In this document: positions 18,622-59,267 of the stretch, piece after piece
How positions within the stretch are numbered: the first letter of the stretch is position 1
How the letters are laid out: each line of letters starts with the position of its first letter
From: Myxococcales bacterium
Lineage (GTDB): Bacteria > Myxococcota_A > UBA9160 > UBA4427
DNA: 64,000 bases
Reading direction: 5' to 3'
Assembly (NCBI GenBank): GCA_012960035.1
Contig: DUBZ01000072.1
Location: 1-64,000 of the forward strand
Made by a program: the position numbers and the translations under genes
The notes under the pieces: generated by a model
Databases searched by the model: none
Told to the model about the DNA's origin: nothing
Seen by the model: only the letters and a program-made list of their open reading frames with translations

Positions 18622-18996
18622 ATGAAACAAAAGCCGGTCGCCATCGCAGGGTTCGTTTTGCTCGCTGCCCTCTCAGGGTGGCTTGGCTGTGCGAGCATGC
18701 GCGCAGCGCAGCTGTATCAATCGGGAACCCAAGCGTTGAACGCCGGTGATGGCGAGCGGGCGGTCGCGCAGCTCCGCGAAGCGAGTCGTCTCCAGCCTGC
18801 AGCGAGCGAGATTCAAAACCATCTCGGCTTGGCCTACGTCGTCGCCGGACAGTCCACCAAAGCCTTGGCAGCATTTGAGCAGGCGGTTCTGCTCGACTGC
18901 GAAAATACTGCAGCGACCCAGAACTTGGCGGCCGCGCGGGCGGCGGCCGAAGACCAGCGACAAGCCGATGCAACCCAGTTCTTGGGAGGTTCGTGA
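18622..18996 (+). CDS. TPR-containing lipoprotein
   Basis: About 124 residues from the ATG at 18622. A short signal peptide (MKQKPVAIAGFVLLAALSGWLGC) ends in a cysteine that fits a lipobox, so the protein is probably lipid-anchored. Two tetratricopeptide units follow: ALNAGDGERAVAQLREASRLQP and NHLGLAYVVAGQSTKALAAFEQAV. TPR units mediate protein contacts. The next gene starts 2 bases after the stop, with GGAGG inside this gene's end, so the two are co-translated. Partner and process are unknown; PilF-like assembly lipoproteins have a similar make-up but are longer. Confidence 0.75.
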   Translation: MKQKPVAIAGFVLLAALSGWLGCASMRAAQLYQSGTQALNAGDGERAVAQLREASRLQPAASEIQNHLGLAYVVAGQSTKALAAFEQAVLLDCENTAATQNLAAARAAAEDQRQADATQFLGGS

Positions 18997-18997
18997 C

Positions 18998-19414
18998 ATG
19001 AACGACGACCAAAAGCCCAGTTGGAAGGAACGCGAAGCGGCGCGCGCCAACCAGGCGACGAAGTCCTACGTGAAAGAACTCGACAGTCTCTTCACGGCCA
19101 GCGGCCGCAGCGAAGAAGCCGAAGCGCTCGTGAAACGCCTCCGCGATTCCCACGGCACGCCAGAGCTCGCCGAGGTGTGTCGGACTTTTCGCGAAGAACT
19201 TGGGATGCCCCGAGAAATCGCGTTGCTCTCAATCTTTCTCGACTCGCAGGAGGCGCCACTCGTCGTCGAAGCGCTCGAAACGATGCTGCTATTGGCTGGT
19301 GAAGACGACGCAGAATTCAGCAAGGGCGTGCAGAGCCAGGTTCGTGTGCTTTCCCAGGACTTTAACAACGATATCGCCGAAGTCGCCGAAGACATTCTCG
19401 CAAAGCTCGCCTAG
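18998..19414 (+). CDS. Conserved-looking cytoplasmic protein of unknown function
   Basis: 138 residues, ATG at 18998 preceded by GGAGG within the end of the TPR lipoprotein gene. The sequence is highly charged and helical: WKEREAARANQATKSYVKEL at the start, then ELAEVCRTFREELGMPREI, and a C-terminal half resembling HEAT-like pairs of helices (SIFLDSQEAPLVVEALETMLLL...). No signal peptide. I recognise no named family. Given its tight coupling, it probably acts with the lipoprotein. The Fur gene begins 45 bases downstream, so all three may be one transcript. Confidence 0.7.
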   Translation: MNDDQKPSWKEREAARANQATKSYVKELDSLFTASGRSEEAEALVKRLRDSHGTPELAEVCRTFREELGMPREIALLSIFLDSQEAPLVVEALETMLLLAGEDDAEFSKGVQSQVRVLSQDFNNDIAEVAEDILAKLA

Positions 19415-19459: not shown

Positions 19460-19894
19460 ATGAAATATGAAACCGAACTCACGGCTCTGGCAGATTATCT
19501 CGACGGGATGGGGCTCAAGCACACGAAGCAACGCGACGCGATCCTCATTACGTTCCTCGAAAGCGAGGAACACGTGAGCGCCGAGCAGCTCTACCAGGAA
19601 GTCCGGAAAGAGTCCCCCAATGTTGGGTACACGACGGTCTACCGGACGTTGAAGTTGCTCGTGGACGCAGGTTTCGCTCAGGAAAGGCGCTTTGACGACG
19701 GGCTGACTCGATACGAAATCGAGCACGCGCATCACGATCATCTCGTATGTCTGAAATGCGGCAAGATCATCGAGTTCAAATCAGAACTCATCGAAGACAC
19801 TCAAGAGAAGATTGCCGTCGAGTATGGCTTCAAAGTTTTGCGCCATCGCCACGAGCTTTACGGTCACTGCTCGAATTGCGACAACCCTTCGTAG
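19460..19894 (+). CDS. fur: Fur family transcriptional regulator
   Basis: 144 residues, the normal Fur length. The winged-helix part includes LKHTKQRDAILITFLES and the recognition helix in VGYTTVYRTLKLLVDAG. The metal-binding part has HHDHLVCLKCGKIIEF (His cluster plus CxxC) and a second cysteine pair, HCSNC, close to the C-terminus, typical of the structural zinc site. Fur represses iron-uptake genes when loaded with Fe(II); PerR or Zur specificity cannot be fully excluded by eye. It follows the TPR lipoprotein and helical protein genes on the same strand. Confidence 0.85.
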   Translation: MKYETELTALADYLDGMGLKHTKQRDAILITFLESEEHVSAEQLYQEVRKESPNVGYTTVYRTLKLLVDAGFAQERRFDDGLTRYEIEHAHHDHLVCLKCGKIIEFKSELIEDTQEKIAVEYGFKVLRHRHELYGHCSNCDNPS

Positions 19895-20100
19895 CCAAAT
19901 GGTCCAAGGCGCCGATCGCTGCTCACCGGATCGTTTACACCGGGTGCAATGATGAGAATGCAAGCGACGCCGCGTATGGATGGTGACTTTCCTATTGATG
20001 ATGGGTAGGCGGTCGATCTTTTCGTGGGCGATCGAAGTATTTCCCAAAAGGGAACCGGGAAGCTGTTAAGTCGCGTTGCGGAAAACCCGATCCCCCCCCC

Positions 20101-20256
20101 ATGGCTACCCAAGTATCCTGCCCCACCTGCGATAGCGAATTGCTGATTGAGGGTGACGAACGGGTTGGTGAGGAAGTCTTTTGCGGGTACTGCGGCGGGG
20201 TCTACAAGGTCATCGCCAAGGACGTCGAGACGCTCGAAGTCGAAGAGGACTTTTGA
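20101..20256 (+). CDS. LysW-like small zinc-ribbon carrier protein
   Basis: 51 residues. Two CxxC pairs (SCPTC and FCGYC) frame an acidic segment, and the C-terminus is ETLEVEEDF. This is the layout of LysW, the amino-group carrier protein of archaeal and Thermus lysine/arginine synthesis, whose C-terminal EDWGE carries the substrate on its last Glu. Here the tail stops at EEDF, so the usual terminal Glu is missing. No LysX, LysZ, LysY or LysJ gene is adjacent. The ATG follows a run of nine C with no ribosome-binding sequence. A carrier role is therefore uncertain; it may be a plain zinc ribbon. Convergent with rmlC. Confidence 0.65.
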   Translation: MATQVSCPTCDSELLIEGDERVGEEVFCGYCGGVYKVIAKDVETLEVEEDF

Positions 20257-20283: not shown

Positions 20284-20841
20284 CTAGCCTTTGTACTCTG
20301 GAAGCAGCTGCGGGTCGATTTCACTCAGTGGCAGGGCTGCAACGTCTTTAGCGGACAGTTGTGGGTCTGCGACCGGCCATGAGATGCCGAGCTCCGGGTC
20401 GTCCCACACCACCGAAAGCTCACCGCCCGAATCGTAAAAGTCACTGCATTTGTACTCGATCTCGGCCATCTCGCTTGTCACCACGAAGCCGTGTACGAAG
20501 CCCTTGGGTACGAAGAGCTGGCGGAAGTTCTCCGCCGAAAGCGTCGCGCCGAAGGCTTTGCCGTAGTGTGGCGAGCCGCGGCGAACGTCCACAGCCACAT
20601 CGTAGATTTCGCCCGACAACACCCGTACCAACTTGTCCTGCGGGCGGTTGGTTTGCATGTGGAGACCGCGCAGCGTCCCGTAGCTACTGCGCGACTGGTT
20701 GTCTTGCACGAAGTCCGCGTCGATTCCGCCCTCGCGGTAGCGTTCTGCGTGATAGGTCTCGAGGAAGTAGCCGCGGTCGTCGCGATGAACGGTCGGATCC
20801 ACCAGGATCACACCGGGTAGGTCGGTTGCGTGAAAGTCCAT
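20284..20841 (-). CDS. rmlC: dTDP-4-dehydrorhamnose 3,5-epimerase
   Basis: 185 residues, the usual RmlC length. It begins with FHATDLPGVILVDPTVHRDDRG, has the catalytic His in LRGLHMQ, the substrate region QDKLVRVLSGEIYDVAVDVRRGSP, and the cupin end FVPKGFVHGF. It epimerises C3 and C5 of dTDP-4-keto-6-deoxyglucose on the way to dTDP-L-rhamnose for surface polysaccharide. It starts 4 bases after the stop of rmlA on the same strand. RmlB and RmlD are not in the window. Confidence 0.93.
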   Translation of the reverse strand: MDFHATDLPGVILVDPTVHRDDRGYFLETYHAERYREGGIDADFVQDNQSRSSYGTLRGLHMQTNRPQDKLVRVLSGEIYDVAVDVRRGSPHYGKAFGATLSAENFRQLFVPKGFVHGFVVTSEMAEIEYKCSDFYDSGGELSVVWDDPELGISWPVADPQLSAKDVAALPLSEIDPQLLPEYKG

Positions 20842-20845
20842 GAGG

Positions 20846-21724
20846 CTACGCAGACTCCTTGGCGAGTCGCAGCAGATACTCGCCGTAGCTGTTCTTCTTG
20901 AGCGCTTCGCCCCGGGCGATCAGTTCGTCGCGCGTGATGTTCCCCTGGCGAAAGGCGATCTCTTCTATACAGGCGACCTTCAAGCCCTGTCGCTCCTGAA
21001 TGGTCTGGATGAAAGAGGACGCTTGCTGGAGCGATTCGTAGGTGCCGGTGTCGAGCCACGCGATGCCGCGCCCGAGAACTTCGACCTGGAGTTCTTTGGT
21101 TTCGAGAAACTTCATGTTGAGGTCGGTGATTTCGAGCTCACCCCGCGGCGAGGGTTTGAGGTTCTTTGCGCGCTCGACCACAGAGTTGTCGTAAAAGTAC
21201 AAGCCGACGACGGCGTAGTTGGAGCGTGGGTCTTCCGGCTTCTCGACGATTTCGAGGGCAAGGCCATCGTCGTCGAATTCAACCACGCCATAGCGTTCGG
21301 GATCGCTCACCCAATAGCCAAAGACAGTGGCGCCATCGTCTCGCTTGGCGGCACGAAGCAGGGCTTCGACGAGACCGTGGCCGTAAAAAATGTTGTCACC
21401 GAGGGCGAGCGCCACGGAGTCGTTCCCGATGAACTCTTCCCCAATGATGAACGCTTGGGCGAGCCCGTCCGGCGATTCCTGCACCGCGTAGGTGATCTCG
21501 AGCCCCGCCTGGCTGCCGTCCCCGAGCAGGCGCTGAAACCCTGCTTGGTCGTGCGGCGTTGTGATGATGAGGATCTCGCGAATCCCGGCCAGCATCAGCG
21601 TGGACAGGGGGTAATAGATCATGGGCTTGTCGTAGACGGGGAGCAGCTGCTTGCTCACACCGATGGTGATCGGATGCAGCCGCGAGCCTGAACCGCCGGC
21701 GAGGATGATGCCCTTCGTGGACAT
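20846..21724 (-). CDS. rmlA: Glucose-1-phosphate thymidylyltransferase
   Basis: 292 residues from the ATG at 21724, with GGGAAG upstream. The nucleotide-binding start [17 protein letters not shown], the [23 protein letters not shown] segment and [10 protein letters not shown] are classic RmlA. The enzyme makes dTDP-glucose from dTTP and glucose-1-phosphate, the first step of rhamnose synthesis. It forms a two-gene unit with rmlC. Together with the two membrane glycosyltransferases at 33.8-36.8 kb it indicates surface glycan production, although they are not linked in one operon. Confidence 0.93.
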
Positions 21725-21884
21725 GGTTGAGCTTCCCTTCTCATTTGCAATGTGTGGCGTCTGCAATGTGGAGCGTATTGCGGCGCAGTGCGGCGTAGTC
21801 GGCGGGTCGGACGCAAGGAAGCCCGAGTCGCGGCCGCAAGGCTAGCTCGAATTTTTTGGAAGTGGAGACGCCTCGTACCGGCGT

Positions 21885-58295: not shown

Positions 58296-59267
58296 ATGCC
58301 GCCCCAGCAACTCACCATGGCCTTCGTGATGGACCCCGTCACCGACCTCGATGTTGCGGGGGACACGACCTTTGTCTTCATGCTCGAAGCACAAAAGCGC
58401 GGGCACGCGGTGTTGTACGTCGATCCCGGCGACCTCACGATCGAACAAGGTCGGCCTGCGGCACGGGTTACGCCTGTGACCCTGCGAGCAGAAAAGGGAA
58501 ATCACGTCGATCTTGGCGACGCGCGCACGGTCATCCTCGACGACGAGGTCGACGTCGCTTTCCAGCGAAAGGACCCGCCGGTCGACGCAGCCTACATCGC
58601 AGCGACCCAGATCCTGGGCACCTGTCAAAAGACCCTCACCTTGAACCATCCCGAATCCGTGCTGGCCTTCAACGAAAAACTATTTGCCGTGCACTTCCCC
58701 GACCTCATGCCGATCACGTCAGTGACCAAAAATATCGCGGACTTGCGCCAGTTCATGGAAGCCCGGGGCGGCGAGATGATCGTGAAGCCGCTGGATGGCA
58801 AGGGTGGCGAGGGAATCTTCCACCTCGTCGAGGGCGAGAAGAACATCACGTCGATTCTCGAGCAGTCGACACAGTTCGGAACCCGCGCCGTGATGGCGCA
58901 AGAATATCTGCCCGCCATTCGCGAGGGCGACAAGCGCATTCTGCTCCTCGAAGGTGAATTGCTCGGCGCCTTATTGCGCGTTCCGGCCCCGAAAGAGGTC
59001 CGAGCCAACCTTCACGTCGGCGGCACGGCTGAAAAGGTGGAGCTGACTGCGGCGGATCTCAAAATTATCGAGCGCGTGGGGCCGGTTCTCAAGCGCCACG
59101 GCTTGTTCTTTGTCGGGATCGACGTCATCGGCGACCGTCTCACGGAGATCAACGTGACGAGTCCGACCGGCGTACAGGAAATCAACACGCTGGACAACAC
59201 TTGTCTAGAGGCGAAGGTGATGGATGCGGTCGAAGCAAAGTTTGGCGCGGGTTCTGGGAAGCTTTGA
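58296..59267 (+). CDS. gshB: Glutathione synthetase
   Basis: 323 residues, AAGGAAG before the ATG. It begins TMAFVMDPVTDLDVAGDTTFVFM, has the ATP-grasp loop VKPLDGKGGEGIF and ends with EINVTSPTGVQEIN, all GshB marks. It joins glycine to gamma-glutamylcysteine. Its stop overlaps the ATG of a sigma-54 regulator gene (TGATG), an unusual pairing. No gshA in the window. Confidence 0.93.
   Translation: MPPQQLTMAFVMDPVTDLDVAGDTTFVFMLEAQKRGHAVLYVDPGDLTIEQGRPAARVTPVTLRAEKGNHVDLGDARTVILDDEVDVAFQRKDPPVDAAYIAATQILGTCQKTLTLNHPESVLAFNEKLFAVHFPDLMPITSVTKNIADLRQFMEARGGEMIVKPLDGKGGEGIFHLVEGEKNITSILEQSTQFGTRAVMAQEYLPAIREGDKRILLLEGELLGALLRVPAPKEVRANLHVGGTAEKVELTAADLKIIERVGPVLKRHGLFFVGIDVIGDRLTEINVTSPTGVQEINTLDNTCLEAKVMDAVEAKFGAGSGKL

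Follow-up and report, generated by a model that had tools for sequence, protein, structure and literature searches.

At positions 20101-20256 of the plus strand, the window, a 64,000-nucleotide stretch of a Myxococcota contig, carries a short open reading frame whose product resembles the amino-group carrier protein LysW and ends differently. The question it raises is whether the protein is still a carrier. The initial annotation offered two readings, a diverged amino-group carrier for another product, or a zinc ribbon that has lost carriage. In LysW and ArgW, the substrate is held by the last Glu of the C-terminal EDWGE, which LysX and ArgX recognise through their GSWGR motif; in Natrinema, the E54A substitution in ArgW results in arginine auxotrophy (PMC10433800). 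In this study, we report that the zinc ribbon gene and its family are real and conserved, and describe what lies beyond the initial annotation, namely a promoter of the sigma28 type, a tip that is conserved throughout the order, and a putative regulon that includes the gene.

The zinc ribbon gene and its family

Translation of 20101-20256 (plus strand) gives MATQVSCPTCDSELLIEGDERVGEEVFCGYCGGVYKVIAKDVETLEVEEDF followed by a stop, a protein of 51 aa in which C7/C10 and C28/C31 form two CxxC pairs, CPTC (residues 7-10; 20119-20130, plus strand) and CGYC (residues 28-31; 20182-20193, plus strand), and an acidic tail ends in EEDF (20242-20253, plus strand). The length, both CxxC pairs, the acidic tail, the EEDF end and the coordinates given by the initial annotation were all correct. 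The description of the gene as a LysW-like orphan zinc ribbon draws on translation, family search, alignment, comparison with PDB profiles, fold search and pN/pS. Among 960 stop-to-stop segments of at least 40 aa in the window, two carried two spaced CxxC pairs near their end, this ORF being one of them. The frame is often open further upstream of the ribbon start, up to 461 aa, in this GC-rich DNA; in the aligned members only a few residues separate the start codon from the first CxxC, and the stop comes immediately after the tip. The aligned members are stand-alone proteins. Homologues confined to internal ribbons within other proteins, which the initial annotation had named as counting against its proposal, were not encountered.

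A scan of the contig collection with the single protein returned no relative, and a six-row alignment did find relatives. At E <= 0.01, the family was matched in 38 of 60 genomes (the source genome counted), which span 10 of the order's families f1-f11. When the family profile was run across 377 genomes of the phylum, 60 were matched at E <= 1e-5, and 57 of these belonged to the source order (79 genomes; hand count), with that of G018 weak at 3.7e-6. The three matches outside the order were weak, and one of them (G171) was a true LysW. Seven positions, C7, P8, C10, G18, G23, C28 and C31, were invariant in 30 aligned members.

These data bear on the reading that the gene is a decaying, functionless relic of LysW. 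Such a relic would fit the lost carrier tip and the absence of the ribbon from 22 of the 60 genomes. Against it, pN/pS was 0.04-0.39 in 14 of 15 close ribbon pairs, indicating purifying selection, although the pairs share members and are non-independent; the remaining pair, at 1.01, had a single synonymous change. Only pairs of equal length with at least 72% identity were scored, and the G042 gene was entered as its second half. Since the ribbon moreover occurs, with its tip kept, in 10 of the 11 families, a relic is highly improbable.

Relationship to LysW

Taken singly, the ribbon fell below every curated cut-off, scoring 17.7 bits against PF21344 (cut-off 27), 27.6 bits against NF041070 (cut-off 75) and 16.3 bits against TIGR01206 (cut-off 53.2), and its best Pfam match was Zn_ribbon_5 (E 1.9e-4). 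At E <= 0.01, 28 of 30 members matched PF21344 and 27 of 30 matched NF041070. In a search of PDB sequences with the family profile, the top three matches were LysW chains (E 4.6e-4, 1.5e-3 and 8.8e-3), the next standing at 0.068, and the alignment to Thermococcus LysW extended through EVEEDW. The predicted model of the ribbon had a moderate pLDDT of 74.3, with low values of 41-56 in the tail. With this model, ranks 1-6 in Foldseek were LysW at a probability of 0.92-1.00 but an E of 0.02-0.16, and ranks 1-5 in VIA-align were LysW with Z 4.5-5.4, followed by 3.1. The scores of these comparisons are modest, as would be anticipated for a protein of about 50 residues. By profile and by predicted fold, the nearest solved relatives of the ribbon are therefore LysW proteins.

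The same searches are relevant to a second alternative, that of a generic zinc ribbon binding nucleic acid or RNA polymerase, whose likeness to LysW would reflect convergence of short ribbons. Other ribbons also score weakly, as Zn_ribbon_5 does, and the zinc finger of ZitP and RNA polymerase subunits occur in the fold lists. These stand below LysW, however, which comes first in both the family profile search and the fold lists and is set apart there from the family that follows. In addition, EEDW is matched by the tail of the ribbon, whose acidity would disfavour binding to nucleic acid. We consider a generic ribbon quite unlikely.

The ribbon resembles LysW/ArgW (PF21344, TIGR01206, NF041070; PDB 3WWL, 3VPB, 5K2M) in size, in its four-Cys ribbon, in its acidic tail and in its predicted fold; as a four-Cys ribbon of about 50-56 aa with, in the predicted model, a LysW-like fold, it falls within that structural type. 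It differs in its tip, in having no LysX found in its genome, in its neighbours, in the FliA-type promoter described below and in its position on a separate branch of the tree. That tree (65 rows, 48 columns, midpoint root, many forks unresolved, the G042 row being the second half of the gene) contained one branch, with support of 100/99, which parts seven LysW or LysW-like rows from 58 orphan rows. The ribbon is thus outside the LysW carriers as they are defined; the predicted fold is shared with LysW, and descent probably is as well. Among publications on LysW-like or orphan LysW proteins, none was by its title concerned with this family, from which we do not claim that it is absent from print.

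The C-terminal tip

EDWGE is the end of LysW and ArgW, with its terminal Glu; the ribbon ends in EEDF, which corresponds to the EEDW of LysW EEDWGE with the terminal Gly-Glu absent. In the alignment of relatives suggested by the initial annotation, 22 of 38 members end in EEDF, none ends in EDWGE, and the terminal Glu is absent from 37. The other tips were EEDY (three members), EEDL and EEEI (two each), and, in one member each, EEDI, DEDW, EDDW, EEDC, EDGI, EEDE, AEEY, EDFG and EEDG, so that the last residue is F in 22 members, I and Y in four each, W, L and G in two each, and C and E in one each. Two other members found in the source genus end in EDW and DDW, which is the LysW tip minus Gly-Glu. 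More distant members, from records labelled Syntrophaceae, Thermodesulfobacteriota, Deltaproteobacteria or uncultured bacterium, have the tips EDFGE, EDFDE, EDFEE, EDYEV, EDYEL and EEYEV, and the one at L164 ends in VVDDT. On the simplest reading of these sequences, the myxococcal branch would have lost the last two residues and kept the acidic-aromatic part.

The acidic C-terminal tip of SSB, which ends in Phe, serves as a docking tip. Acidic residues and a C-terminal aromatic are common to SSB and the ribbon, but SSB binds DNA and has a different fold, and the analogy is limited to how the tip may act. A strict docking motif is weakened by the variants EEEI, EEDE, EEDC, EDGI, EEDG and EDFG.

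Carrier genes in this and other genomes

The initial annotation had called for a search of the genome for RimK/LysX-type ligases. When this was done, the only match to PF08443 at E <= 0.001 was a gene in the window itself, at 58296-59267 (plus strand). Its candidacy as a LysX was rejected, as it is a glutathione synthase over the cut-off (374.5 bits, cut-off 272). Nothing in the source genome, which is 96.65% complete and could hide one in a gap, was over the cut-off of TIGR00768. Over the 60 genomes, TIGR00768 was exceeded in 11, comprising six of the 38 with the ribbon and five of the 22 without it. Searches of the source genome with PF21344 and TIGR01206 gave no match at E <= 0.001, so no LysW of the annotated type elsewhere in it explains the ribbon gene, although the same PF21344 search missed the ribbon gene itself.

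True LysW proteins were found elsewhere. TIGR01206 was over its cut-off in one of 377 phylum members (G171) and had no match in the source order; the G171 LysW ends in ETEEDWGE and adjoins an ORF with GSWGR. Three distant genomes, one a Thermodesulfobacteriota and two Deltaproteobacteria records, have both an orphan (L166, L167 and L169, ending in EDYEV, EDYEL and EDYEV, respectively) and a separate LysW ending in EEEDWGE, which precedes a ligase containing GSWGR together with an ORF resembling, on reading, ArgC/LysY (clusters L258, L259 and L260). RimK-family matches over the cut-off were obtained in four of nine distant genomes. Three of these are the LysX beside the separate true LysW, and the stretch around the fourth (L261) contained neither GSWGR nor a LysW ORF; the RimK matches in the distant genomes therefore provide no evidence that the orphan is charged. 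As a separate observation, a second altered LysW-like type, of 51-54 aa and ending in FEEEEK, is present in other Myxococcota (L264, L266 and L267, in G277, G181 and G273, respectively), where it adjoins an ORF of 293-294 aa.

A diverged carrier would have a ligase joining an amino or other cargo to a main-chain or side-chain carboxylate of the EED tip. The retention of the LysW fold and of an acidic tip that is conserved across the family is compatible with this, as are the three Syntrophaceae or Deltaproteobacteria members that end in EDFGE, EDFDE or EDFEE. But 37 of the 38 members lack the terminal Glu, where attachment is known to take place, the genome's only RimK/LysX-type ligase found is a glutathione synthase, the presence of the ribbon is unlinked to that of RimK (6/38 against 5/22), the conserved neighbours are fur, rmlC and rmlA, and a true LysW coexists separately in three genomes. 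Continued carriage thus appears very unlikely, and of the two readings first offered the sequence evidence does not support the amino-group carrier for another product. It does support the zinc ribbon that has lost carriage, through the kinship with LysW, the missing Gly-Glu and the lack of any dedicated LysX among the genes found; where both coexist, the true LysW keeps EDWGE beside a GSWGR ligase and the orphan does without EDWGE.

Gene neighbourhood

The absence of an adjacent LysX-type ligase, noted at the outset, was borne out. Upstream of the ribbon is a Fur-family gene (19460-19894, plus strand; PF01475, E 7.4e-38), and convergent with it are rmlC (20284-20841, minus strand) and rmlA (20846-21766, minus strand), each over the cut-off of its equivalog model. 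Cluster members of the three genes were present in 28 (fur), 30 (rmlC) and 34 (rmlA) of the 38 ribbon regions fetched, and in the five genomes of genus g11 the fur member immediately precedes the ribbon. A search of the 38 ribbon loci for neighbouring amino-acid genes found none; fur, rmlC and rmlA were what recurred. At the distant loci L162 and L169 the next ORF after the orphan resembles, on reading, a metallophosphoesterase, and at L164 reading by eye found nothing informative after the orphan.

Upstream of fur, the C-terminal 138 aa of 18746-19414 (plus strand) form a predicted protein that had no Pfam match at E <= 1; cluster members of this 138-aa protein were seen in 11 of the 38 regions.

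Promoter upstream of the zinc ribbon gene

Between fur and the ribbon, a motif search located a sigma28/FliA-type promoter with the -35 element TTAAG at 20066-20070 and the -10 element CCGAT at 20087-20091 (both plus strand); 16 nt separate the two elements, and a further 9 nt lie between CCGAT and the ATG. The full arrangement, TTAAG-N16-CCGAT-N9-ATG, occupies 20066-20103, and its spacing is conserved across the ribbon family: in the aligned upstream sequences of most members, CTCAAG-N16-CCGAT ends about 9 nt before the start codon. The window's -35 region, GTTAAG, is two bases off CTCAAG, and its -10 reads CCGATC, with C rather than A in the last position. In Bdellovibrio bacteriovorus, TTAAG-N16-CCGATA was present at 92 of 140 mapped attack-phase promoters and was ascribed to FliA, whose attack-phase regulon includes many non-flagellar genes, chemotaxis proteins among them (PMC3627812). 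The ribbon has the same element minus the final A. Unlike the Bdellovibrio regulon, it has its start codon about 9 nt after the -10. With so short a distance there would be little or no mRNA leader, and the message from which the ribbon is translated is probably leaderless or nearly so.

To be scored as a promoter, a site located 8-11 nt before a start had to agree with the consensus in 9 or more of 11 bases at the exact spacing; the other ORFs of at least 100 aa in the same regions served as controls. By this test, 30 of 38 ribbon genes, that of the window included, were positive, against 11 of 2012 other ORFs; at 10 or more bases the figures were 28 of 38 and 4 of 2012, and at the full 11 bases 21 of 38 and 0 of 2012. 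These counts are partly circular, since the motif was taken from the ribbon family before counting, and independent support for the promoter is provided by the Bdellovibrio consensus and by the other genes that follow the element. In the window on its own, a search allowing two mismatches gave 2 hits where shuffles averaged 1.3, so that the single site proves nothing without the comparison across the family. The eight genes that failed were five from genus g11, which have the fur-cluster ORF directly upstream, and those of G017, G032 and G045, which agree with the consensus in 7-8 of 11 bases at an unchanged distance from the start. Before the distant orphans (L159, L162, L164, L166-L169 and L171) no such promoter was seen by eye; AG-rich stretches precede the ATG.

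Genes under the same promoter

A search of the source genome for TYAAG-N16-CCGAT-N9-RTG found five sites, and none with the reversed control. One (G000:C13:33156; L231) precedes an MCP chemoreceptor (MCPsignal, E 6.2e-34) and another (G000:C32:78119; L232) a PilZ protein (E 6.3e-10), the start lying 9 nt after the element in both. A third (G000:C62:91394-91432; L122) precedes a protein of a family recognised by MF..SLNTPVV, and the remaining two precede the ribbon gene and a 13-codon ORF, the last of which is probably a chance match.

The exact pattern CTCAAG-N16-CCGAT-N9-ATG had 97 matches in 46 of the 60 genomes, against 0 for the reversed pattern. Among 377 phylum members it was present in 102, made up of 60 of the 79 genomes that belong to the order and 42 of the 298 others (hand count), with three matches to the reversed control. 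The 97 matches reduce to 84 distinct matched strings, L133-L172, many of which repeat G genomes, being left out. Of the 84 sites, 20 precede the MF..SLNTPVV family, 14 the ribbon and seven, by reading, NtrC-like regulators, and in several genomes the NtrC-like genes under the promoter lie near fliA. The MF..SLNTPVV family, of 133-332 aa, is the commonest gene under this sigma28-type promoter, and a Pfam scan of two of its members gave nothing over the cut-off. Where sites in other genomes were tested, PilZ was confirmed in four proteins (G005, which has the ribbon, and G016, G018 and G024, which do not) and MCPsignal in one (G009, without the ribbon). Many of the single promoter sites may be due to chance.

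The source genome has a gene for a FliA-type sigma factor at G000:C155:36486-37163, with 280.1 bits to TIGR02479 (cut-off 189.6) and sigma-70 regions 2, 3 and 4, and is one of 50 of the 60 genomes in which FliA_WhiG was over the cut-off. On reading, the ORFs around it (L173; G000:C155:27000-46900) do not look flagellar and would encode a phosphatase, an NtrC-like regulator, a histidine kinase and a glycosyltransferase; Pfam confirmed only the sigma factor. A flagellin search of the source genome found none. Flagellin was detected in 22 of the 60 genomes. It was seen in 10 of the 38 genomes that have the ribbon and in 19 of the 46 that have the exact pattern, the latter showing that the regulon is not foreign to flagellated relatives.

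The strongest rival to a docking role is that of a chaperone. In it, the ribbon would stabilise FliA or else an activator of the NtrC type belonging to that regulon, as FlgZ does for its own factor. FlgZ/HP0958, a zinc ribbon that protects RpoN from turnover, provides a precedent and shares with our protein, as compared by description, two CxxC motifs and a tie to a sigma-factor programme; it differs in that it belongs to DUF164 and has Cys residues at 202 and 223 (PMC3372290). Among the matches of a Pfam scan of the ribbon, no family was described as DUF164. The same promoter also stands before the NtrC-like genes, at the seven sites read as such, near fliA in several genomes. Yet several of the 22 genomes without the ribbon (for example G003, G004 and G007) have FliA over the cut-off. 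A protector of this kind is unlikely, though less so than the other alternatives.

Proposed role of the zinc ribbon

Our favoured explanation, to which we give about an even chance, is that the ribbon is a LysW-fold protein that has lost carriage and now serves for docking, as a small member of a sigma28 regulon of non-flagellar genes. The FliA-type sigma factor encoded on G000:C155 would direct RNA polymerase to the gene, whose transcript would be leaderless or nearly so, and to a few non-flagellar signalling genes, those of the MCP, the PilZ protein and the conserved MF..SLNTPVV protein. The four Cys would bind zinc and so stabilise the ribbon, and the acidic, usually aromatic-ended tip may fit into a partner's pocket, as LysW docks its own tip on its enzymes, but without cargo. 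The protein could then serve as a small adaptor or modulator where sigma28 controls signalling or surface behaviour rather than flagella.

Conclusions

The promoter and the company that the gene keeps in the genome add more interest to the ribbon than the tail alone. We propose tentatively, as a possibility with the balance still against it, that a LysW carrier was exapted in this uncultured Myxococcota order, losing its last two residues, keeping the aromatic-ended tip as a docking peptide and becoming a leaderless, sigma28-controlled adaptor of a flagellum-independent signalling regulon. A short LysW-like ORF on its own is no evidence of a LysW pathway, which is a warning for annotation. If the proposal is true, a dedicated carrier protein has been stripped of its chemistry and reused by way of its docking tip, and the ribbon, being short and open to testing, would give a way into a FliA programme retained by bacteria with no detected flagellin.
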